A stretch of 33,980 bases of DNA from Thermoanaerobaculia bacterium (GTDB taxonomy: Bacteria; Acidobacteriota; Thermoanaerobaculia; Multivoradales; JAHZIX01): assembly GCA_027069135.1 (NCBI GenBank), contig JALXFE010000005.1, forward strand, positions 1-33,980. Direction: 5' to 3'. The translations under genes and the position numbers were made by a program. This document shows, in pieces, positions 5,171-27,800 of the stretch (positions are counted from its first letter, which is position 1; each line of letters begins with the position of its first letter). The notes below the pieces were generated by a model. The model saw only the letters and a program-made list of their open reading frames with translations. It was not told the origin of the DNA and did no database searches.

Positions 5171-5173
5171 GTG

Positions 5174-6475
5174 ATGACCTGCCGTGACCGACCTTCTCTC
5201 CTGCGAAATCCCTACCTTTTCGCCGCGCTGCTGGTGGCCTCCTTGGGACTCCCCGAGGGGTCCGAAGCCCAGCCCCTGACCATCCCGCGCTTTGATTTCA
5301 GCTTTTCCAATCCGGGGGCTCGGAGCCTCGGCTTCGGAGGAGCCTTCGTGGCGTTGGCGGATGATGCGACGGCGGCCTTTGCCAACCCGGCGGGGCTGGT
5401 GCAGCTGACGGAAGCGGAGCTGTCGGTGGAGGTCCGGCTGTGGAGCCGGTCGCCGTCGTTCATCTCCGGCGGTCGCCGGGATGGCGAGCCTTCCGGCAAC
5501 GGTGTCGATACAGCGGCGGGAATCGTTTTTGGCCGTGATCGGAGCGAGGACTTCGGGCCTTCCTTCGTCTCGGTGGTGATCCCTAAGGGGAAATGGTCCT
5601 GGGCCGTCTACGGCCACCAGATGGCGAAGTTCGAGCAGACGGTGGAGTCTCAAGGACTGTTCTTCGAGGACGACACCGCCGCCCATCGGACCGGCCGCCT
5701 CCCGGCGACTCAAGAGCGGGTGGATCTCGAGGTCACTGCCTTGGGGGTCGCCACCGGCTGGAAGATGAACGAGCGATGGAGCTTCGGCCTCGGTCTGGTC
5801 TTCTCGGATACAACTCTTACGACCCGCTCGGAGGCCTTCCTGACGGATGACTTGAACCCCGCGGCTCAATTCGGTGGCGTCTCCTTTCTTCCGGAGCGGC
5901 GCCTCTCGACCAGCGCCGTGACCGCCGACGGTACCGATTTCTCCCTCACTGGAGGAATTCTGTGGCAGCCTTCGGACCGACTCACCGCCGGCCTCTCCTA
6001 CCGCCAAGGCGGTGAAGTGGACGGGGTTGCCCAGCTCGAGGTCGGCCCGGTTCTGCCCGTTGACGGCCAGTTCCGAAACAAGGCCGTCTTCGACCTTCCG
6101 GACGTTGCCAGCGCCGGCCTTGCCTACCGCTTCGGGGAGGGCCGGATGACCCTCGCCGCCGAGGTGGACCGGATCACCTACTCCGGATTGGTACGGATCT
6201 CTGAAAGTGCGGATCTCATCGTAGACGGGCGAGAATATCGGGACGCCTGGGACTATCGCGCCGGCGCCGAATACGCCCTTCTCCAGCGATCCCCCATCCT
6301 CGCCTTCCGGGTCGGGATCTGGATCGAGGACAACGGTCAGGACGTGCTGAACGAGGAGTTCACCCACGTCAACGCAGGATTGGGCGTCGCCGGCGAGACG
6401 TTCCAGGTCGATCTCGCGGGTGATTTCTCGGAAGAGATCGACAGCGTCTCCCTGTCTCTCATCTATCGCTTCTGA
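5174..6475 (+). CDS. OMPP1/FadL/TodX-type outer-membrane protein
   Basis: About 433 residues with an N-terminal signal peptide (cleavage probably after GSEA). The mature N-terminus reads 'FDFSFSNPGARSLGFGGAFVALADDATAAFANPAGL', broken here into 'NPGARSLGFGGAFVALADD' and 'ATAAFANPAGL'; this is the hallmark of OMPP1/FadL-like barrels and PorV-like proteins. The protein ends in 'LSLIYRF', a typical C-terminal aromatic barrel-assembly signal. It probably forms a beta-barrel for hydrophobic or other small-molecule uptake; the substrate is unknown. A GTG at 5171 directly precedes the ATG chosen here, and neither has a strong Shine-Dalgarno sequence. The stop codon lies only 3 bp from the stop of the convergent winged-helix/AAA gene. 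Confidence 0.8.
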   Translation: MTCRDRPSLLRNPYLFAALLVASLGLPEGSEAQPLTIPRFDFSFSNPGARSLGFGGAFVALADDATAAFANPAGLVQLTEAELSVEVRLWSRSPSFISGGRRDGEPSGNGVDTAAGIVFGRDRSEDFGPSFVSVVIPKGKWSWAVYGHQMAKFEQTVESQGLFFEDDTAAHRTGRLPATQERVDLEVTALGVATGWKMNERWSFGLGLVFSDTTLTTRSEAFLTDDLNPAAQFGGVSFLPERRLSTSAVTADGTDFSLTGGILWQPSDRLTAGLSYRQGGEVDGVAQLEVGPVLPVDGQFRNKAVFDLPDVASAGLAYRFGEGRMTLAAEVDRITYSGLVRISESADLIVDGREYRDAWDYRAGAEYALLQRSPILAFRVGIWIEDNGQDVLNEEFTHVNAGLGVAGETFQVDLAGDFSEEIDSVSLSLIYRF

Positions 6476-6478
6476 GAC

Positions 6479-7927
6479 TCAGCCCGATGCGGCCGCCCGC
6501 TGTCGCAACCAATGACAGTGGATCGCCGAGGCGATGGCAAACGTCCCGTCCTCGAAACGGCGGATCTGTCCCAGGCGTTCCAGGTGCAGCAGCCGGGAAG
6601 CTATCTCCGAGGCCGGTGAGGAGAGCCCCAGCTCCCCCGCCGGGGTCGGGGTGTCGTGGGCGGCCAGACGCAGCTGGATTTCCTGCTCCAGCGGCGTCAG
6701 GGAATCGAAATCTACCGAGAAGAAGTAGTGCACCGTGAGATCTGCCGTCACCGCTTCGGTGGCCGTTTCCAACTCCCCACTCTCCAGGAAGCGCATGCAG
6801 AGCAGTTGCAGCAGGCTGGGATGATTGCCGCAGCGGCGCAGCAACTCCCGGACGGTGGCTGCGTCCCGGATCGGCGCGGGACTCCCTGGTGCTTGGACCT
6901 GCCCCACCAAGGCCTCCGCGGCCCCGTCCCCCAGGGGCCCCAGATAGAGGGGCGGAGCGAAGCCGTGGAGGAAAGGCGACGTGTCGCCCCGCTGCGCCGC
7001 CAGCTGCCAGAGGCCGGGGCCCGAGGCAAGGACCGTGCGGATCCCCTCCTGAGACTGCAGAGCCCGCCGTAGCTTGCGCAGCAATACCGGCCAGCGGCCG
7101 TGGAGGTTTACGAGCTCCTCTACCTCGTCCCAGAGCAGGAGGAGGGTGCGCCCGCGGGACCGCAACCCTCGCCGCAGGCGGCCGATGGAGCGAAAAAAGT
7201 CCTCCCCCCGGACCTCTTCCAGGGGCAGCCCAAGGAGCTCCAACCTATCTTCCGCATCCGCTAGAGCTGTAGCGAAATCCCGATGCAGATCTTCCGGCTC
7301 GGCGCTTCCTTGCAGATCCCAGAACAGCGGGAAGTAGCCCCCTTCTCCGTCCTCAGCGGTCAGATGCTCCAGTTGTTTGAGGACCGAGGTCTTCCCCACC
7401 GCCCGAGATCCAAGGAGCCAGATGCCGTTGCGGGGTCCTTTGAGGATCTCCCGAATCTCTGCCTCGCGGCCATAGAAGAGATCTCCCCGCACCCATTGGC
7501 CGACCACGAAGGGGCCGACGACGAAGGGCTGGCTAGAAATCCCGCAAGACGTATCGAGGGCGGTTCCCGGGGCTGAGGGCCCGCCCAAAGGTCGACCGGC
7601 AGCCTCCACCTTCACCGGCTGGATCAGCAGCCGATAGCCCCGCTTGGCGATGGTCTCGATGAAGCGGGGCGAGCGGGCGTCGTCTTCGAGAGCTCGCCGC
7701 AGACCGGCGATGGCCCGGGTGATGACGGACTCCGTAACGAAGACCCCGGGCCACACGGCCTCGGCGATGTCGTCTTTGGAAACCACCTGTCCCGGCTGGT
7801 CCGCAAGAAAGAGCAAGACGTCCATCAACTTCGGCTCCACCCGGGCGATGTCGTCGCCGCGGCGGAGACGGTTGAGCGATGGATGGACCCGCCACTCCTC
7901 GAGATCGAAGTCGTTCTGTTCTTCCAT
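6479..7927 (-). CDS. winged-helix (OmpR/CadC-type) DNA-binding protein fused to a P-loop AAA/STAND-like ATPase
   Basis: A 482-residue protein. Residues about 8-105 form a transcriptional-regulator C-terminal winged helix: 'LMDVLLFLADQPGQVVSKDD', then 'ESVITRAIAGLRRALEDD' and 'FIETIAKRGYRLL'. A linker leads to an ATPase domain starting near 'VVGQWVRGDLFYGREAEI'. Walker A is GSRAVGKTS (173-181) and Walker B is LLLLWDEVE (262-270). The last 85 or so residues look like a second winged helix, as in STAND NTPases. There is no sensor domain or membrane segment, so the input is probably protein-protein contact with related ATPases next door. It is the third gene of a minus-strand run, 141 bp after the AAA-only gene. 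The AAA part is clearly related to that gene, sharing VVGQWV, FYGR and LFWDLQG. DNA targets are unknown. Confidence 0.8.
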   Translation of the reverse strand: MEEQNDFDLEEWRVHPSLNRLRRGDDIARVEPKLMDVLLFLADQPGQVVSKDDIAEAVWPGVFVTESVITRAIAGLRRALEDDARSPRFIETIAKRGYRLLIQPVKVEAAGRPLGGPSAPGTALDTSCGISSQPFVVGPFVVGQWVRGDLFYGREAEIREILKGPRNGIWLLGSRAVGKTSVLKQLEHLTAEDGEGGYFPLFWDLQGSAEPEDLHRDFATALADAEDRLELLGLPLEEVRGEDFFRSIGRLRRGLRSRGRTLLLLWDEVEELVNLHGRWPVLLRKLRRALQSQEGIRTVLASGPGLWQLAAQRGDTSPFLHGFAPPLYLGPLGDGAAEALVGQVQAPGSPAPIRDAATVRELLRRCGNHPSLLQLLCMRFLESGELETATEAVTADLTVHYFFSVDFDSLTPLEQEIQLRLAAHDTPTPAGELGLSSPASEIASRLLHLERLGQIRRFEDGTFAIASAIHCHWLRQRAAASG

Positions 7928-8068
7928 CAGGGTGGATGTTACACAAAATCCACCGCCCCTCTATTCCCGAAGCGAAGAGTTGGGCATCGGGAGAGCGCTT
8001 TACGGTCCAAGGCCTGTAAGACGGCCGTTGGGAAGAACCTCGGTGGGTGGCCAATCCAGGGGTTCATT

Positions 8069-9088
8069 TCAGATGACGTGACTCAACCAGGAATCGAGGA
8101 ATGAATTGGGGATCTCGAAGCCGCCACGACCCCGCCGGAGAACACCCAAGGCGACGAGTCGTTGCGCTTCGCCGGATGGTCCCGAAGGGTCTGCGGGATC
8201 GAAATCTTCACCCCCCGTGGCGACGCCTCGTAGGATGGCCTGCTCAGCCTTTGAGAGAAGCTCGAAGTCAACGGCCAGAAGGTGCTGCACAGCTCTGTCC
8301 GAGGCCATCTGCCGGATCGCAGCTTCCGGATCCCCGATCTCCAAGCAGCGCTTGCCAGCGATCTGCAACAACATCGGGTGGTTTCCGCAGGCCTTGCGAA
8401 GAACATCTGCCCAAGCCCCTTCGATCCTCGGCTGGGAGGGGGCCGGCAGCTGACCTTGAAGTAGGAGAGATCGCGCCTCTTCGTCCGTCAACGGGCCGAG
8501 AAGGTAGGGGGAGCGGAAGGGCTTCATCAGCTGTGCCGCGGCTCCCTCCACCGCCGCGGCGTCGCAGAGCCGCAGGGAGGAAGCGACGACGACACGGGCC
8601 CTCCCGAAGCCCCCGACAGCCTGCCAGAGGCTTGCCGCGAGGCCTGGATGGCGCTCTTCCAGAGCCACCCCCTCGTCCACTTCGTCGCAGAGCAGCAAGA
8701 GCTCACCACCGCGGCGCCGCAGGGCCGAGCCCAGCTTCCGGAGGGCGGTGAAGAGCTCCCCATCCTCGACCGATTCCAACGAGATCCCCACTCGATCCAG
8801 GGCGTCCTGGGCATCGAGGAGGGCGTCACAGAAGGTGAGGCCCAAGTCTTCGACGCTGTCGACACCTTGGAGATCCCAGAAAAGAGGCAGACAACGCTCC
8901 CGGTTGGAACTCTTCAAGAACTCCAGCTGCTTGAGCAGGGACGTCTTTCCGATCCGCCGAAGGCCGGCGATCCAATGCCATTCCTGAGGGCTCCCGAGGA
9001 GCTCCGTGATGCACCGGTTCCGGCCGTAAAACTTCGGGCCACACACCCACTGCCCGACGACGTAGGGAAGCATCCGACGCCGGGTCAC
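8069..9088 (-). CDS. stand-alone P-loop AAA/STAND-like ATPase, paralogue of its neighbours
   Basis: About 339 residues. It begins 'MLPYVVGQWVCGPKFYGRNR' and has Walker A GLRRIGKTS (42-50), LFWDLQG (69-75) and Walker B LLLLCDEVDE (130-139). The C-terminus 'VQHLLAVDFELLSKAEQAIL' and what follows align with the C-terminal winged-helix-like part of the 6479-7927 protein. It lacks the N-terminal DNA-binding domain. Start choice: a GTG at 9088 overlaps the TGA of the upstream gene by 4 bases (GTGA), with GAGG about 9 bases before it; an ATG at 9073 is the alternative and removes five residues. Either way the gene appears translationally coupled to the TPR-AAA receptor gene. Its role is unknown; I infer an adaptor or relay ATPase in a three-protein system. 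Confidence 0.8.
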   Translation of the reverse strand: MTRRRMLPYVVGQWVCGPKFYGRNRCITELLGSPQEWHWIAGLRRIGKTSLLKQLEFLKSSNRERCLPLFWDLQGVDSVEDLGLTFCDALLDAQDALDRVGISLESVEDGELFTALRKLGSALRRRGGELLLLCDEVDEGVALEERHPGLAASLWQAVGGFGRARVVVASSLRLCDAAAVEGAAAQLMKPFRSPYLLGPLTDEEARSLLLQGQLPAPSQPRIEGAWADVLRKACGNHPMLLQIAGKRCLEIGDPEAAIRQMASDRAVQHLLAVDFELLSKAEQAILRGVATGGEDFDPADPSGPSGEAQRLVALGVLRRGRGGFEIPNSFLDSWLSHVI

Positions 9089-11523
9089 GCCCCTTGGCCT
9101 CGGGAGGCGTCGGAGGAGGCGGCCGACTGGGCTTCGACGTCTTCGACATCTTCGACGGTAATGGTCCGGCGCCCCGCCTCGTGGAGACGCCCCACCAGGG
9201 TCAGGCAGCGGCGTTGGATCAGGAAGGGCTTGCCATCGCTTAAGGCCACGATGCGCTCGGCCGCTCCAGCCTCGAATCGGAACATCTCCCCGACGGGCTC
9301 CACCACCAGGCGCAGGGCCTCCTCCGGCGGGATGGCCCGTACCTCCACCTCCTCGAAGAAGTTGTACCAGGGGCTGGCTTCTTTCTCCCATTCCTTGCGG
9401 ATACCGACACCGGCGACCACCGCTGCCAGGTTCTCCGCGAACCGCTTCATGAAGAGACTCCGGAGGCCCTGGTTGACCCGCGGGTCATAGTGATTGAGCT
9501 CGTCTACCTCGTCGATCAGGAGCACTACTTTGAGTCGTTTCGGACTCCCGTCCCGGAGTTTCGCGAGGAGGCCGTGGAGCTCCCGAAAGAGGTCGTGATG
9601 ACTGTAACCGGCGGCCCCTCCGAGGGCTCGCCGACGGTCCGCCGCGGGATCCAGGGCCTCGAAGATCTGGTCCGCCAGGGTGGCGAAGAACCGCTCCTCG
9701 GGAGTGCCCTGAAGGTCGATGTAGACGGGCAGGAATAGGAAGTCCGGATCGTCCAGGGCCTCCAGACGACGGTGGACCTGGTGCAGCAAAGAGGTTTTTC
9801 CGATGCGCCGCTCCCCAAAGAGCAGGAGGCTGTTGTTGTGGACCGTCTGGAGGATCTTCTGCACCAGCGGCTCGCGGCCAAAAAACAGATCCGGATCGAA
9901 GATCGGCCCACCTGCAACGTAAGGATTGAATCGCCGCTGGCGCAGCTCCTGACGCTGTCGGCGGCGTCTCCACGCCCTCGTCCGCCAGAGGGCGAGGAGC
10001 GCTGCTACCGCCACTGTCCAGGGCCACGGAGATCGCCACCACGCAGGCCGATAGAGCACCCGGTACTCGGCCCGGGAAGTAGAGCCGGCCTCGTCCGTGG
10101 CCAGGATCGTGAAGACGGCAGGGCCGGGACTCAAGGTCTCGCCCAGCCGGAACTCGGTGATGAAGGTCCCCCCCACCTCCTGAGTGCTGAGGCTGCCTTC
10201 GAGAGACCTGCCCTCGCCATCCAGGAACTCCAGGTTCACCGGGGATCGATCGATCACCACGCCGCTGAGCCGGAAATCCTGCCCCCCGATCGCTTCGATC
10301 AACTCGCCGTCGATCTCCTGGCGTCGATCGGCGAAGCGGATCGCCGGTGGTAAGTTCTCCCGGGCGGAGATCCCCAGGAGCCGCTGGCTGATCCGGCCGT
10401 AGGCTTGGCGCACGAGATCCAGGGCCTCGGCGTTTCCCCGATCCAGGGCGAGGACCCGATTGGCGGCGGAGAGGGCCTCCTCGAATCGGTCGGCGGTAAA
10501 GGCTCCGGCGGCGACCTCCAGACTCTCGGCGACCTGGTTGTCGTGGCGGGCTTGGGCTCGGGCCGCCAAGATCTCCTCCCGAAGCCGGCCCCCTTCCCGA
10601 TGATCCGCCTCGAGGGCGAAGATCCTCTCCAGGCGGCCCAGGGCCTCCTCCCAGCGACCGGCGGCCGACTGGCTGCGGGCGCTCTCGAGAGCGGTGGCGA
10701 TCATCGACCGGCGCTCATCCTCCGCCACCGCCGCGGAAATCTCCCCCAGGGCCCGACGGAGCAAAATCTGAGCTTCCTCGCCGCCCCCGGCCCCCAGGAC
10801 CTGGCGCAGCAACCCGGCCGCCGCCTCCGCATCGCCCTGCTCCAGGAGGTCTTTGCCCCGCCGGAGATTTTCCCGGGCCTCTTCCTGATCCCGCCGGACC
10901 TGCTCCTCGACCATGGCGCGGGTGCGCAGATCTTCCATGAGGCGGACCGCTTCCGGGTGCTCCGGCTGAGCCGCCAGGCCGGGAGTCAGGGCTTGTATGG
11001 CTTCGTCCACGCGGTCTTGCTCCTGCCACCTGCGAGCCGAGATGAGGCTCTCCTGGACAATCTTCTCGATCCGCTGGCGGGCGGAGGCCCTCGCCCGACC
11101 TTCCGAATCCGCTACCGATTGGCGGAAACGCGCCAACTGCTGAAGGGCTTCAGGAGAGCTCTCAATGGCGCCGAGCCGCTCCTCCGTGTCGAAGGCCTCG
11201 AGCGCTGCCGCCGACTGGCCCAGATGATGGTAGGCAATGCCGAGCTTGAGGTACGGGAAGTAGTCCATCACCCGCATACCGTAGGTGCGCACCCGGGAGC
11301 CGGAATCCCCTCTTCGCTCCAGGGCTTCCTGGATCTCCCCCACGGCCTCGGACCACTCTTCGGCCTCCAAAGCCCGCTCGGCGTTCTCATAGTGGACGTA
11401 CCAGCGGTCAGCGAAGGCCTCTACCGGCAGCCACCAACACACAACGACGGCAACTATTGTGGGGATTGGTCGCCACGAGCCGCCGCTGCGGCAAGCCCGG
11501 TCTGCTGTTGGGTTCGCTGCCAT
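9085..11523 (-). CDS. membrane-spanning TPR receptor with cytoplasmic P-loop AAA/STAND-like ATPase
   Basis: An 812-residue protein with a clear order: N-terminal hydrophobic signal/anchor (about 19-37), TPR-like helical repeats (about 41-380, e.g. 'RWYVHYENAERALEAEEWSE'), a beta-rich segment (about 395-490), one transmembrane helix (about 497-513, 'SPWPWTVAVAALLALW'), a basic stop-transfer stretch, then an ATPase domain from 'FNPYVAGGPIFDPDLFFGRE'. Walker A is GERRIGKTS (570-578) and Walker B is VVLLIDEVDE (666-675). By topology the TPR and beta parts face the periplasm and the ATPase the cytoplasm. The ATPase resembles those of the two downstream genes. It is the first gene of the run and overlaps the next. 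No strong Shine-Dalgarno sequence precedes the ATG. Ligand and output are unknown; I infer an envelope sensor. Confidence 0.8.
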   Translation of the reverse strand: MAANPTADRACRSGGSWRPIPTIVAVVVCWWLPVEAFADRWYVHYENAERALEAEEWSEAVGEIQEALERRGDSGSRVRTYGMRVMDYFPYLKLGIAYHHLGQSAAALEAFDTEERLGAIESSPEALQQLARFRQSVADSEGRARASARQRIEKIVQESLISARRWQEQDRVDEAIQALTPGLAAQPEHPEAVRLMEDLRTRAMVEEQVRRDQEEARENLRRGKDLLEQGDAEAAAGLLRQVLGAGGGEEAQILLRRALGEISAAVAEDERRSMIATALESARSQSAAGRWEEALGRLERIFALEADHREGGRLREEILAARAQARHDNQVAESLEVAAGAFTADRFEEALSAANRVLALDRGNAEALDLVRQAYGRISQRLLGISARENLPPAIRFADRRQEIDGELIEAIGGQDFRLSGVVIDRSPVNLEFLDGEGRSLEGSLSTQEVGGTFITEFRLGETLSPGPAVFTILATDEAGSTSRAEYRVLYRPAWWRSPWPWTVAVAALLALWRTRAWRRRRQRQELRQRRFNPYVAGGPIFDPDLFFGREPLVQKILQTVHNNSLLLFGERRIGKTSLLHQVHRRLEALDDPDFLFLPVYIDLQGTPEERFFATLADQIFEALDPAADRRRALGGAAGYSHHDLFRELHGLLAKLRDGSPKRLKVVLLIDEVDELNHYDPRVNQGLRSLFMKRFAENLAAVVAGVGIRKEWEKEASPWYNFFEEVEVRAIPPEEALRLVVEPVGEMFRFEAGAAERIVALSDGKPFLIQRRCLTLVGRLHEAGRRTITVEDVEDVEAQSAASSDASRGQGA

Positions 11524-11677: not shown

Positions 11678-12505
11678 CTACCAGCTATTGCGGCGCACCG
11701 GCTCGCCGGGCCTCCAGAGGTTCAGCCGGCGCCGGACCCCGGCCCGGAGGCGGATATCGTCGGAGTCTTCGTTGAGCCCCAACATGCCCTGGCCATAGAG
11801 GGCCCATTTGCCCACTTTCTGCGAGAACACACCCCCGATAAAGGCGGGATCATCGGCCGCTTTAGGTCCGCCCTCGAGGCTGGCCTCGATGCCGAATTGC
11901 CGAGTCTTGGATAGCCGATGCTCCCAGGCCAGACGAAGAATAAAAACGTCGTCCTGCTCGGAGTTGACAAAGGGATTCCCGAGAATTCCGAGCCCGAGGT
12001 TGGCGTGAATCAGGTTCCTGGGGGAGATCTCCTTCGTGGCGAGGATGAAGCCGAAGAAGTCCGTTTCATCGGTGGCTCCACCGTCCTCGTCGTCGCCGTT
12101 GGGCAATTTGACCTCGTAGAGGAAGGCGAGGGCGGGACGCATGCCCTTCTCCTGCAGAAGCCAAATCTTCGTACCGAAGGTCCAATCCCCACTGTTGCTG
12201 GTGCTGGAGCTCCCGTCATCGATCAAAGAGACGGCGACGCCGGTGACCTGGAGCTCAGCGAACTTTCCCAAACCGAAACTGAAGCGGGTCGCCAACAGAT
12301 CCCATTGGCGGTCCCGATTCTCGATGCCGAAATTCACCGGATCCTTGCGGAATATGAAACCGGTATCCAACGTGAAGGCCCCGGGCTGCAAGGTCTCCGC
12401 TTCTTCGGTCGAGAAAGGCAACTCCGCTGCCGCCGGTAGCGTCCGGAGCGAAAAAGCGAGCCCGGCCAGGAGGGCTAAGATCCAATACGTGGCTCGATAT
12501 CTCAT
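11678..12505 (-). CDS. putative outer-membrane beta-barrel, phenol MetA-pathway-like family
   Basis: 275 residues with a signal peptide (about 1-27, 'TLPAAAELPFSTEEAETL' at the junction). The mature part has alternating beta-strands typical of 'transporter / putative MetA-pathway of phenol degradation' proteins: an N-terminal 'ETLQPGAFTLDTGFIFRKD' segment, glycine- and aromatic-rich strands such as 'WDLLATRFSFGLGKFAELQV', and 'RPALAFLYEVKLPNGDDED'. The family name is historical and does not show that phenols are handled here. GAGGGA lies 6 bases before the ATG. The gene diverges from the IPTL-tailed gene over 316 bp. The end 'LWRPGEPVRRNSW' lacks the usual terminal Phe but ends in Trp. Confidence 0.7.
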   Translation of the reverse strand: MRYRATYWILALLAGLAFSLRTLPAAAELPFSTEEAETLQPGAFTLDTGFIFRKDPVNFGIENRDRQWDLLATRFSFGLGKFAELQVTGVAVSLIDDGSSSTSNSGDWTFGTKIWLLQEKGMRPALAFLYEVKLPNGDDEDGGATDETDFFGFILATKEISPRNLIHANLGLGILGNPFVNSEQDDVFILRLAWEHRLSKTRQFGIEASLEGGPKAADDPAFIGGVFSQKVGKWALYGQGMLGLNEDSDDIRLRAGVRRRLNLWRPGEPVRRNSW

Positions 12506-24252: not shown

Positions 24253-26856
24253 CTACCGCGTATGCCGGTCCAGATCCTCAGCCAGGTCTTCGCGCCCGGC
24301 GGCAACCAGGCCTGCTCGGCCCCGGTCGATCCAGCCTCGTGCCTCCTGCTGCTTCCCCGCTGCGGCTAGGGCTTCCCCCAGAAGGCCCTGGGTGTAAGGG
24401 ATATCCCAATTGCGGGCCGGAGGCGTCTCGCTCCAGGCGTCCAAAGCCTCCCGCAAATAGGATTCCGCCCGCGTCAGGGCGCCCGCGGAGCGAAGGACAA
24501 CGGCCAGGGTGTAGAGAGCGCCGGCAAAATCCACGTGTCCCGCTCCGAGACCCTCCCGCCGCAGATCCAGGCAACGGATCAGAGCCGCCTCCGCCTCCTT
24601 GAACCTTCCTTCCTTGAACAACACGATCGCCAGCTGACTGAGGTTGGTCGCCAGAGCGACGCCGCCCCGGCGGGCCTCGTTGATGGCTATCGCCTGGTGG
24701 TAGTAGGCCTCGGACGCTTTGAAATCACCGGTCCGGGAAAGCAATTCCGCCAGGTTGTGGAGGGCCGCGGCGACCCGCGGGTGGTCGTCTCCCAGGAGCT
24801 TCCGGTAGATCCCGAGGGCCTTGCGAGATTGCTCCTCCGCAAGATTGAGCTCCCCGAGATCGGCGAGGACAAGGGAGAGATTATGGCGGCTGTGGGCCAC
24901 CAGCCAATGGCCCTCCCCATAAAGCTGCAGCTGTTGCGCCAGAGCCTCTTCCAGCAACGGTCGAGCTTGGTCCGGCTGGCCCGATTCCTGGAGTGAGAGC
25001 CCCAGATTGTTGAGACTCACGCTGACTTCCCGTTGGGGCTCTCCGAGAAATTTTCGCCGCTGGGCCAGAGACTCTCGGAAGAGAGGGCCAGCGGTGGCCA
25101 CTTCCCCCTTTCGGCGCAGGATAAGGCCGAGGCTGTTGAGGCTCTCCGCCACGGCCAGATGCTCCTCACCGAAAGTGCGGCGCTCGATTCCAAGAGCCTG
25201 ACGGACCAGGCCTTCGGCCTTCTCCAGGCGGTCCAGATCCATAAATGCTAGGCCGAGGCTGTCGAGGCTTTCAGCCACCGCCGGATGGTCTTGGCCAAAG
25301 GTCTTGCGTCGAACCTCGAGGGCCCGCTCGAGGATCTCTCGGCTTTGCTCGTAGAGTCCCAGGCGCCGATACCCCTGCCCCAGGGTATCGAGCAAGCGGC
25401 CCTGGATTTCCGGCTGGGTGGCCAATTCCGTCGGCACTTGCCGTGCGGCATCGTCCAGAAAGGAGCGCAGAGTGAGATCCGGATTGGGGGTGAGGCCCGG
25501 ATCGGCGGCACGAAAGAGGTCCTCGAGGAATGCCGAGACCTCCTCTGCCCGGCGCTGTTCCTGCTCGGCTCGATGACGCGCGGCTTGCGCCTGGCGGGCT
25601 TGCCAGGTGGCAGCGGTGATTCCCGTCAGCAAAGAGAGGACGATGAGCGCTGCCGCCGCGGCTCCCAACCGGTGTCGGCGGACAAATTTGGACATGCGGT
25701 AGGCCAAGGTTTTCCGGCGGGCCAAAACCGGTAGGCTCACCTGATGATTCCGCAGATCTTGAGCCAGCTGCTCCACCGAGCTGTACCGCCCTCCGGGATC
25801 CTTGTGAAGAGCCATCCCGGTAATCGCGTCGAGATCACCGCGCAGGCGACGGCGTAGGCCCTCGAGGGTGCTGCCGCGCGCCTGGGCCAGAGCCGCCTCT
25901 TTCAGGACCTCGCTCGGCGGGAGCGGAGCTTGCTCGCAGATGATCCGCTCCAGCTCCTGCCGCGAACGTCCCCGAAGCCCATAAGGCTGGCGACCGGTCA
26001 GCAGGATGTAGAGGAGAACCCCCAGGGAGTACACGTCGCTGGCGGTGGTGACAGGCTCGCCCCGGACTTGCTCCGGACTGGCGAAGGCCGGTGTCATTCG
26101 CTGGGCCCCCGACGGCTCCTTCGTCGCCGGTTGAGGTCCGTGGCCGGAACCCAGGAGCTTGGCTACCCCGAAGTCCAGGAGCTTGGGCTCACCGTCGGCG
26201 GTAACCAGGATGTTGCTGGGTTTGAGATCACAATGTACGACCAGGTGACGGTGGGCGTGGTGCACCGCGGCACAGACCTGTCGAAAAAGATCCAGCCGCG
26301 CCCCCAGAGAGAGGCGGTGCTGGTCACAGTGGACGTCTAGGGGCTCCCCTTCGACATACTCCATCACGAGGTAGGGGTGATGGCCTTCTTCAGTGACCCC
26401 ACCGTCCAGCAGGCGGGCGATGTTGGGGTGCTCGAGGCTGGCGAGAATTTGGCGTTCCTGTTGGAAGCGGAGGGGATCCTGGGTACTCTCCAAGCCGTCC
26501 CGCACCTTCTTGATGGCCACCTGCTGGCGATACTGGCCGTCGGCCCGTTCCGCCAGGTAGACCGTCCCCATCCCCCCCCGACCCAGCTCGCGAAGAATGC
26601 GGTAGGAGCCGATGCGGTGCCCCACCGCTTCCGTCGTCGCTTCGTGGGATAAGAGCCCGGCGGCGGCCTCGAAGACCGGCCGGTCGAGAAAGGGTTCGCT
26701 CTTCCCGTCCCTTTCTAGCAGGCCTTCGACCTCTTTCCTCAATCCTTCGTCACCGGCGCAGGCCCGTTCTAAGAAGGCAGCCTGCTGTGGCGCATCGAGG
26801 TCGAGAGCGCCGTTAAAGATCTCCTTGACCCGCTGCCAACTCGATTCCTCTGCCAT
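24253..26856 (-). CDS. membrane Ser/Thr protein kinase with C-terminal TPR domain
   Basis: 867 residues from the ATG at 26856; the longer frame overlaps no extra conserved sequence. Order: a short N-terminal helical region shared by acidobacterial kinases ('WQRVKEIFNGALDLD'), then a PknB-like kinase domain (about 84-370) with G-loop LGRGGMGTVY (91-100), K116, HCDLKPSN (catalytic D210), DFG (228-230) and 'MTPAFASPEQVRGEP'. One membrane helix (about 397-419) leads to about ten TPR/kinesin-light-chain-like repeats (about 440-860), probably periplasmic. HRD is replaced by HCD, so it is a non-RD kinase, which suggests it does not depend on activation-loop phosphorylation. It lies 58 bp after the ECF sigma gene, so the two are an operon. 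Substrates are unknown. Confidence 0.88.
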   Translation of the reverse strand: MAEESSWQRVKEIFNGALDLDAPQQAAFLERACAGDEGLRKEVEGLLERDGKSEPFLDRPVFEAAAGLLSHEATTEAVGHRIGSYRILRELGRGGMGTVYLAERADGQYRQQVAIKKVRDGLESTQDPLRFQQERQILASLEHPNIARLLDGGVTEEGHHPYLVMEYVEGEPLDVHCDQHRLSLGARLDLFRQVCAAVHHAHRHLVVHCDLKPSNILVTADGEPKLLDFGVAKLLGSGHGPQPATKEPSGAQRMTPAFASPEQVRGEPVTTASDVYSLGVLLYILLTGRQPYGLRGRSRQELERIICEQAPLPPSEVLKEAALAQARGSTLEGLRRRLRGDLDAITGMALHKDPGGRYSSVEQLAQDLRNHQVSLPVLARRKTLAYRMSKFVRRHRLGAAAAALIVLSLLTGITAATWQARQAQAARHRAEQEQRRAEEVSAFLEDLFRAADPGLTPNPDLTLRSFLDDAARQVPTELATQPEIQGRLLDTLGQGYRRLGLYEQSREILERALEVRRKTFGQDHPAVAESLDSLGLAFMDLDRLEKAEGLVRQALGIERRTFGEEHLAVAESLNSLGLILRRKGEVATAGPLFRESLAQRRKFLGEPQREVSVSLNNLGLSLQESGQPDQARPLLEEALAQQLQLYGEGHWLVAHSRHNLSLVLADLGELNLAEEQSRKALGIYRKLLGDDHPRVAAALHNLAELLSRTGDFKASEAYYHQAIAINEARRGGVALATNLSQLAIVLFKEGRFKEAEAALIRCLDLRREGLGAGHVDFAGALYTLAVVLRSAGALTRAESYLREALDAWSETPPARNWDIPYTQGLLGEALAAAGKQQEARGWIDRGRAGLVAAGREDLAEDLDRHTR

Positions 26857-26914
26857 GGCCTGCTTCCGGATTGTTGCCCCGTCTACGGTTGGCGTCCCAC
26901 CTCCTTGGTCAAGC

Positions 26915-27547
26915 TCAGCCGAGCAAGGAGGTACCACCTCGTCGCGGCTCTTCTGGTGGAACACACCCTACCCGGGGGCCGTGGGAAGCCGGGGCGCTCT
27001 CCAATTCCCGGCTCAGCCAAGCACGGGCCAGACGCCACTCGCGATGGATCGTCGAGGGGGACACGCCCAGCACCTCAGCGGCTTCTTCCACGGTCAACCC
27101 ACCATAGAAGCGAAGCTCCACGACCCGCATCTGCTGGTGGTCGAGCTCTCCCAAACGGGCCAGGGCTTCCTCCAGAGCGAGTATTTCTACATCCAGCATC
27201 TGATCCGAGACCATCACATCTTCGAGGGTGACCTTGGCGGCGCCGCCGCCTCGCTTGGCGGCGTTGTGCCGTGCTGCATGCTTGACGGTGACGCGACGCA
27301 TCAGATGGGCCGCCACTCCCAAGAAGTGAGCCCGGTTGCGCCACCGGACGCGGGTCTGGTCGATCAGGCGCAAGAAGGTCTCATGAACCAGAGCGGTGGG
27401 CTGAAGGGTGTGATCCGGTCGCTCCCGGCGCATATGGAGCCGAGCCAGACGCCGCAGCTCGTCATAGACCCGGCCCATGAGCTCTTCCAAGGCGTCCGAC
27501 TGACCGTCGTTCCAATCCAAAAGCAGGTCCGTGATGTCGCGGGTCAT
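26915..27547 (-). CDS. ECF-type RNA polymerase sigma factor
   Basis: 210 residues. Region 2 spans 'GQSDALEELMGRVYDELRRL' to 'LVHETFLRLIDQ', and region 4 has the helix-turn-helix 'LTVEEAAEVLGVSPSTIHRE'. The 'HTLQPTALVHETFLRL' block is typical of the ECF subgroup that pairs with Ser/Thr kinases in Acidobacteriota and Planctomycetota. No anti-sigma factor is adjacent; the co-transcribed kinase is the likely regulator. ATG 27547 is preferred (GGAG 6 bases upstream) to an in-frame TTG at 27565. The C-terminal 25 or so residues are rich in Pro/Gly/Arg and may be non-conserved. Confidence 0.9.
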   Translation of the reverse strand: MTRDITDLLLDWNDGQSDALEELMGRVYDELRRLARLHMRRERPDHTLQPTALVHETFLRLIDQTRVRWRNRAHFLGVAAHLMRRVTVKHAARHNAAKRGGGAAKVTLEDVMVSDQMLDVEILALEEALARLGELDHQQMRVVELRFYGGLTVEEAAEVLGVSPSTIHREWRLARAWLSRELESAPASHGPRVGCVPPEEPRRGGTSLLG

Positions 27548-27800
27548 AGCCTTCTCCCACGTCAAGAGTCTCTAAACAATTCAAACGTACCACGAGAGAA
27601 AGGAATAGTAAAAAAAGTCGCCGCAACCGCCACCGATTGACAGTCTTTGGCCCCGTTTTGGGCGTTACCAGGTACAGGCCCTGAGACCTCCGCCCAAGCC
27701 CGGGAAAAGGACGGCCGACAGGGGTCAGACATGCCGGGAGAGCCCCTCCCGGAGTAAGAGAACTACTACGAATGTAGTCATGACCAGAGGGAGAATTGAA
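27548..27800. promoter_or_regulatory. divergent intergenic region, sigma-kinase operon / exported protein
   Basis: About 250 bp between divergent genes. It holds an A-run (near 27608-27616) and a small inverted repeat ACTAC-gaat-GTAGT just before the exported-protein gene. No RNA gene or coding frame is convincing. ECF autoregulation through this region is possible but not shown. Confidence 0.3.

Follow-up and report, generated by a model that had tools for sequence, protein, structure and literature searches.

How might a signal at the cell envelope reach the chromosome of a bacterium through a set of ATPases instead of a histidine kinase and its response regulator? The question is raised by three adjacent genes in a stretch of 33,980 nucleotides, here called the window, from a Thermoanaerobaculia bacterium of the phylum Acidobacteriota (assembly GCA_027069135.1, contig JALXFE010000005.1). 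The genes, which we term A, B and C, are intact and all lie on the minus strand (11523–6479). The original prediction, made from the letters of the window, described them as related P-loop ATPases that differ in what is attached—an envelope receptor, nothing, and a DNA-binding domain, respectively—and proposed that they form a pathway from membrane to DNA. The description was accurate, and we regard it as probable that A and C, with B, perform transmembrane signalling by paired STAND-family ATPases that replace the histidine kinase and response regulator. The fundamental unit is the pair formed by A and an effector ATPase, of which the A/B/C trio is a derived variant.

Gene A (9085–11523, minus strand) encodes a putative envelope receptor ATPase of 812 residues, comprising a signal peptide, a TPR-like region, a beta-sandwich, a transmembrane helix and an AAA domain. 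The helical, TPR-like periplasmic region (residues 41–382; 10378–11403, minus) is indicated by AlphaFold helices, by Foldseek matches to TPR superhelices and by sub-threshold Pfam matches to TPR. In the predicted structure, a nine-stranded beta domain (residues 394–491; 10051–10344, minus) precedes the transmembrane helix, in the position occupied by the Y_Y_Y domain of Chloroflexota homologues. The helix itself (approximately residues 500–520; 9964–10032, minus) is Arg-rich on its cytoplasmic side. The original prediction included this segment; it is only weakly hydrophobic in the window copy (0.84), and clear in 11 relatives (1.5–2.25), which also carry seven to ten Lys/Arg residues on the ATPase side, a positive-inside distribution of charge. 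Because the helix is clear in these relatives and the basic residues lie beside the ATPase, the ATPase of A is most likely cytoplasmic and the TPR and beta regions external. The AAA domain (9109–9897, minus), of the STAND/ORC type, has the Walker A motif GERRIGKT and the Walker B motif LLIDEVDE; it matches ORC/Cdc6 AAA domains (Z 16–17), and in the predicted structure A ends without a second winged helix.

Gene B (8069–9088, minus; GTG start) encodes a short, AAA-only protein of 339 residues that belongs to the effector clade, and its start overlaps the stop of A by 4 bp (GTGA), as had been noticed. Gene C (6479–7927, minus; 482 residues) follows at a distance of 141 bp, with no overlap, and joins a winged helix of the OmpR/ToxR/CadC type to an AAA domain. 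The winged helix (7613–7915, minus) is a Trans_reg_C domain (Pfam PF00486, 3.5e-17), the model of which matches ToxR and CadC (ToxR DNA-binding domain, Z 18.7, root-mean-square deviation 1.3). The AAA domain, with its C-terminal winged helix (6500–7501, minus), scores above the Pfam cut-off for AAA_22 and is archaeal STAND-like: in the model of C (pLDDT, a measure of local confidence, 82.6) it best matches the archaeal STAND protein 2qen (Z 22.8 over 313 residues; 2fna, Z 20.7) and then the NLR resistosomes and CED-4 (Z 16–18). The AAA domains of B and C are 42% identical over 328 residues (E 1e-57), and those of B and A, 36% (E 1e-7); all three are predicted to adopt a STAND/ORC-type fold with a P-loop. 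Walker A and B are intact in 59 of 60 A domains and in 86–87 of 89 B/C domains, the exceptions being mostly fragments. At E ≤ 1, Pfam matched none of A, B and C to HisKA/HATPase or receiver domains, and did not match C to the BTAD domain of SARP/AfsR regulators; nor did it match any of the three to FecR. No hydrophobic segment was found in C, and the winged-helix chain of the window has no transmembrane helix.

The pairing of A with an effector ATPase is widely conserved. Named genomes were searched with an alignment of the B/C ATPase domains only, A being no part of the query, and 77 loci were found, in 63 of which an A-type gene adjoins the effector gene or diverges from it. The A-type ATPase gene is present in 61 of these: A stands ahead of B in tandem at 47, the effector gene comes first at 3, and at 11, every one of them gammaproteobacterial, the two genes diverge. 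In the other two loci, A is truncated at a contig edge. The remaining loci are mostly contig ends, together with a clade of seven from Chloroflexota. Within the window's order (72 genomes), A occurs in 16 genomes and B/C in 18; all 16 genomes with A also hold B/C, none has A alone, and the two with B/C alone are both incomplete drafts (Fisher p 4e-14, a value that overstates independence, as the genomes are related). In a sample of the phylum, all eight strong A loci, from six genomes, have B/C alongside. The pair occurs in Acidobacteriota, Chloroflexota, Gammaproteobacteria and one metagenome-assembled genome of Bacteroidota, and because cultured isolates carry it as well (Sulfidibacter corallicola, L135 and L147; Acanthopleuribacter pedis, L140), the pairing is no artefact of binning. 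Orphan effector-clade ATPase genes without an A partner stand beside a peptidase-like gene in Chloroflexota (L131, L132, L133, L136 and L137).

What is attached to the two ATPases varies, and it varies in keeping with the division of labor originally proposed: sensor domains on A and regulatory domains on B/C. In Acidobacteriota and Gammaproteobacteria, the sensor of A consists of TPR and the beta domain; in Chloroflexota (L122), of eight Reg_prop repeats and Y_Y_Y; and in Bacteroidota (L157), of a receiver domain and seven GAF domains. Deeper relatives (L220 and L236) have Reg_prop and Peripla_BP_6 sensors. The outputs on B/C include the winged helix (Trans_reg_C), a Ser/Thr kinase (Pkinase), a kinase plus a sigma factor of the extracytoplasmic function (ECF) group in one chain (Sigma70_ECF; L059), Sigma70_ECF alone (L070), the LuxR-type helix–turn–helix GerE (L158) and, on one distant B, a SIR2-like domain (SIR2_2; L121). 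The effector C of Gammaproteobacteria has C-terminal transmembrane helices. The effector ATPase of most acidobacterial relatives bears a Ser/Thr kinase. The idea of a pathway free of histidine kinases and phosphorelay holds for the proteins of the window, but an absence of phosphorylation does not extend to the system as a whole. The motifs VAIK, HRD.K and DFG are retained by all 19 fused kinases, which on this basis are predicted to be active. By our reading of the alignment, the fused ECFs have QPTA at the site of the acidic DAED motif of other ECFs, and replacement of DAED is a hallmark of kinase-activated ECFs (PMC8103513). Two variants stand apart from these forms. Proteins of 1300–1400 residues with Reg_prop, a transmembrane segment and AAA, encoded without an adjoining effector ATPase gene (L219:2937–6881, plus; L223:3523–7680, plus), point to a wider family of related ATPases with propeller sensors. 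And Holophagae effectors (L147:8977–10524, plus; L151:8980–10479, plus) end in a degenerate tail that resembles a kinase C-lobe, possibly a pseudokinase output.

The conserved unit reaches beyond the trio, to an outer-membrane gene that the original prediction left out. This gene (5171–6475, plus), convergent with C, encodes a FadL/OMPP1/TodX-type barrel (Toluene_X, PF03349, 4e-20, 72 bits; TonB-barrel matches fall below the cut-off). At 40 of 49 diderm loci, and at none of the Chloroflexota loci, a Toluene_X homologue stands no more than 200 bp from the ATPase genes. Chloroflexota have no outer membrane, and we treat the latter result as a check of consistency, not as independent proof. Chance adjacency should be rare, an estimated 0.5% or so per locus, because the window's genome has only five Toluene_X genes above the cut-off. 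Such a neighbor invites another explanation, that the locus is a transport or envelope-assembly cluster in which A is an energized scaffold that works on the FadL-like barrel, and B/C only regulate expression of the cluster from cytoplasmic cues, no signal passing from A to C. Outer-membrane barrel genes are the commonest neighbors, often in several copies, and TPR proteins frequently serve as scaffolds when the envelope is assembled. Yet the pairing persists in Chloroflexota without an outer-membrane gene, where A carries Reg_prop/Y_Y_Y; the receiver–GAF and periplasmic-binding-protein forms of A look sensory; and the outputs of B/C are regulators fused to the very same ATPase. We consider this explanation unlikely, though it is the best of the alternatives.

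Phylogeny bears on how the trio arose. A and the effector ATPases form two clades of one superfamily, each spanning phyla, and not a set of unrelated ATPases. The gammaproteobacterial A and effector sequences are both nested among acidobacterial ones, and this shared placement suggests that the pair was transferred as one unit. The system inferred originally was the trio, and what endures across four phyla is the partnership of A with B/C. A, short B and winged-helix C occur together in approximately seven acidobacterial genomes, from several families: the window, G002, G022, G016 and L113/L115/L119, the last three with gene order C–A–B and with C truncated in L113. In the tree, the A sequences of these trios cluster with one another, and so do those of B and of C. 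Neither outcome that would have told against the original prediction was obtained: the trio is not confined to close relatives, and its ATPases do not fall into unrelated clades. In G436, A and C have a FadL-type gene between them and there is no clear B. C could instead be a lone, one-component cytoplasmic regulator, A and B being an unrelated pair that merely adjoins it: C is 141 bp away and has a possible promoter of its own, it lies some 8 kb from an A–B(kinase) pair in two genomes (L083/L055 and L084/L058), and it occurs by itself on one draft contig (L082). We think this very doubtful, since the AAA domains of B and C are close kin, Gammaproteobacteria and G436 have A and winged-helix C with no other effector nearby, and the three trio proteins form matching clades. 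Comparably improbable is a conflict or cell-suicide module, in which STAND ATPases sense an invader or a breach of the envelope and trigger an effector: the STAND/NLR-like fold and the SIR2-like domain of the one distant B speak for it, and the latter makes a defense role possible in that one case, but the role in defense that had been floated finds little support here, as PADLOC gave no significant match (best E 6e-4, over 47 residues of the P-loop only), the outputs, with motifs intact, are mostly transcriptional or kinase domains, and the neighbors are outer-membrane channels rather than defense genes.

Conserved pairing, the swapping of sensors and outputs, and the fold together support an account in which A is a receptor and B/C are effectors. 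In such signalling by paired ATPases, the periplasmic TPR and beta regions of A would read the state of the FadL-like barrel, or a ligand that the barrel delivers. The single transmembrane helix would convey the signal to the cytoplasmic ATPase of A, which would flip between ADP- and ATP-bound states and, once switched, recruit B and C, the ATPases of the effector clade, or assemble together with them. C would be the output in the window, the assembly gathering OmpR/ToxR-type winged helices on DNA and so changing transcription. Because B has kept the ATPase and lacks the output domain found on the B of relatives, it is most likely an adaptor, or else a ring subunit, that links A to C. We infer the physical contact of A with B/C, the nucleotide switch, the direction of the signal, its ligand and its target genes from this arrangement. 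Several points weigh against it. The overall model of A has a low predicted template-modelling score (pTM 0.35), for which reason only its single domains were used, and in Pfam the ATPase domains score close to the cut-offs or beneath them. The seven-locus Chloroflexota clade has B without an adjacent A, and the one other genome of the window's genus has neither A nor B/C. Genes may also be kept together for shared regulation, with no contact between their products. Finally, a single origin of the winged-helix fusion is not rejected by the approximately unbiased test (p-AU 0.089), and repeated fusion of this output is therefore not proven.

Directly upstream of A in the window is a second outer-membrane protein gene (Phenol_MetA_deg; 11678–12505, minus), no homologue of which was found beside A at the other loci searched. 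In a genome of the same family, the cluster encodes another outer-membrane protein, an OmpW-type barrel, between B and C (L052:1864–2595, plus). In Gammaproteobacteria, a conserved lipoprotein-like gene separates the divergent A and winged-helix effector genes (L101:6728–8368, minus; L107:6806–8416, minus); its family occurs in 10 loci, and in L101 the product has DUF5666 and DUF2807. Farther along the window (24253–27565, minus), an ECF sigma gene with the motif HTLQPTALVHE, as in the fused forms of relatives, stands ahead of a Ser/Thr kinase–TPR gene. To judge by its domains, this is the unfused counterpart of the kinase–sigma outputs; we considered and rejected it as an additional partner, since its domains are homologous to the fused outputs, but nothing links the two genes to A/B/C here.

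Accounts of bacterial signal transduction generally list one-component, two-component, Ser/Thr kinase, ECF/anti-sigma and second-messenger systems. A recurrent pair of membrane ATPase and effector ATPase would, if true, add a class to these, and would connect NLR-like ATPase switches with ordinary envelope sensing; the pair draws on the same repertoire of sensors as histidine kinases, and its outputs range from DNA-binding domains to kinase–sigma fusions. We judge the chances evenly balanced that such a class is general, in at least four phyla: that a STAND ATPase in the membrane, bearing the sensor, and another in the cytoplasm, bearing the output, form a cognate pair, like kinase and response regulator, with sensors and outputs freely exchanged and with a FadL-type channel of the outer membrane placed first in diderms. 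A/B/C would be the local form of this widespread and apparently undescribed system. Comparative genomics and a limited check of the literature are the basis for calling the class new: in the open-access literature searched, no description of a paired-ATPase system was found, while there is published work on conflict systems with STAND ATPases, on ECFs under kinase control and on hybrid two-component systems.

Each of these relatives shares something with A/B/C. The iSTAND, or NTP-dependent, conflict systems (PMC7159879) are likewise clusters of STAND ATPases with variable effectors, but they have a MoxR–vWA pair where A/B/C have other partners. ECF43 and EcfP/PknT are ECFs under Ser/Thr kinases, and the fused ECFs similarly have QPTA and lack DAED (PMC8103513); the fused form, however, unites kinase, sigma factor and ATPase in one polypeptide, beside a membrane ATPase. 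FecA–FecR–FecI also ties an outer-membrane barrel to transcription by way of a periplasmic part; here, the barrel is FadL-type, no FecR-like anti-sigma factor is present, and a proposed ATPase relay takes its place. Among ToxR, CadC and TcpP, the winged helix of C is closest to ToxR and CadC (33–37% identity), and C differs in having an ATPase and no transmembrane segment. Two-component systems, including the hybrid two-component systems (HTCS) with Reg_prop/Y_Y_Y sensors, resemble A/B/C in combining a modular membrane sensor with a modular output protein, and the A of Chloroflexota bears the same Reg_prop/Y_Y_Y sensor as HTCS; A/B/C, in contrast, have a pair of ATPases without histidine kinase or phosphorelay, and their outputs extend to kinases and sigma factors. 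In known STAND proteins, a single chain usually contains the sensor, the switch and the effector together. With the STAND NTPases (MNS/ATPase_2-like; Leipe, Koonin and Aravind, 2004), MalT and the AP-ATPases, A/B/C share the fold, the motifs and the principle of a switch ATPase joined to effector domains, but they divide these functions between two partner ATPases, one of them bound to the membrane.

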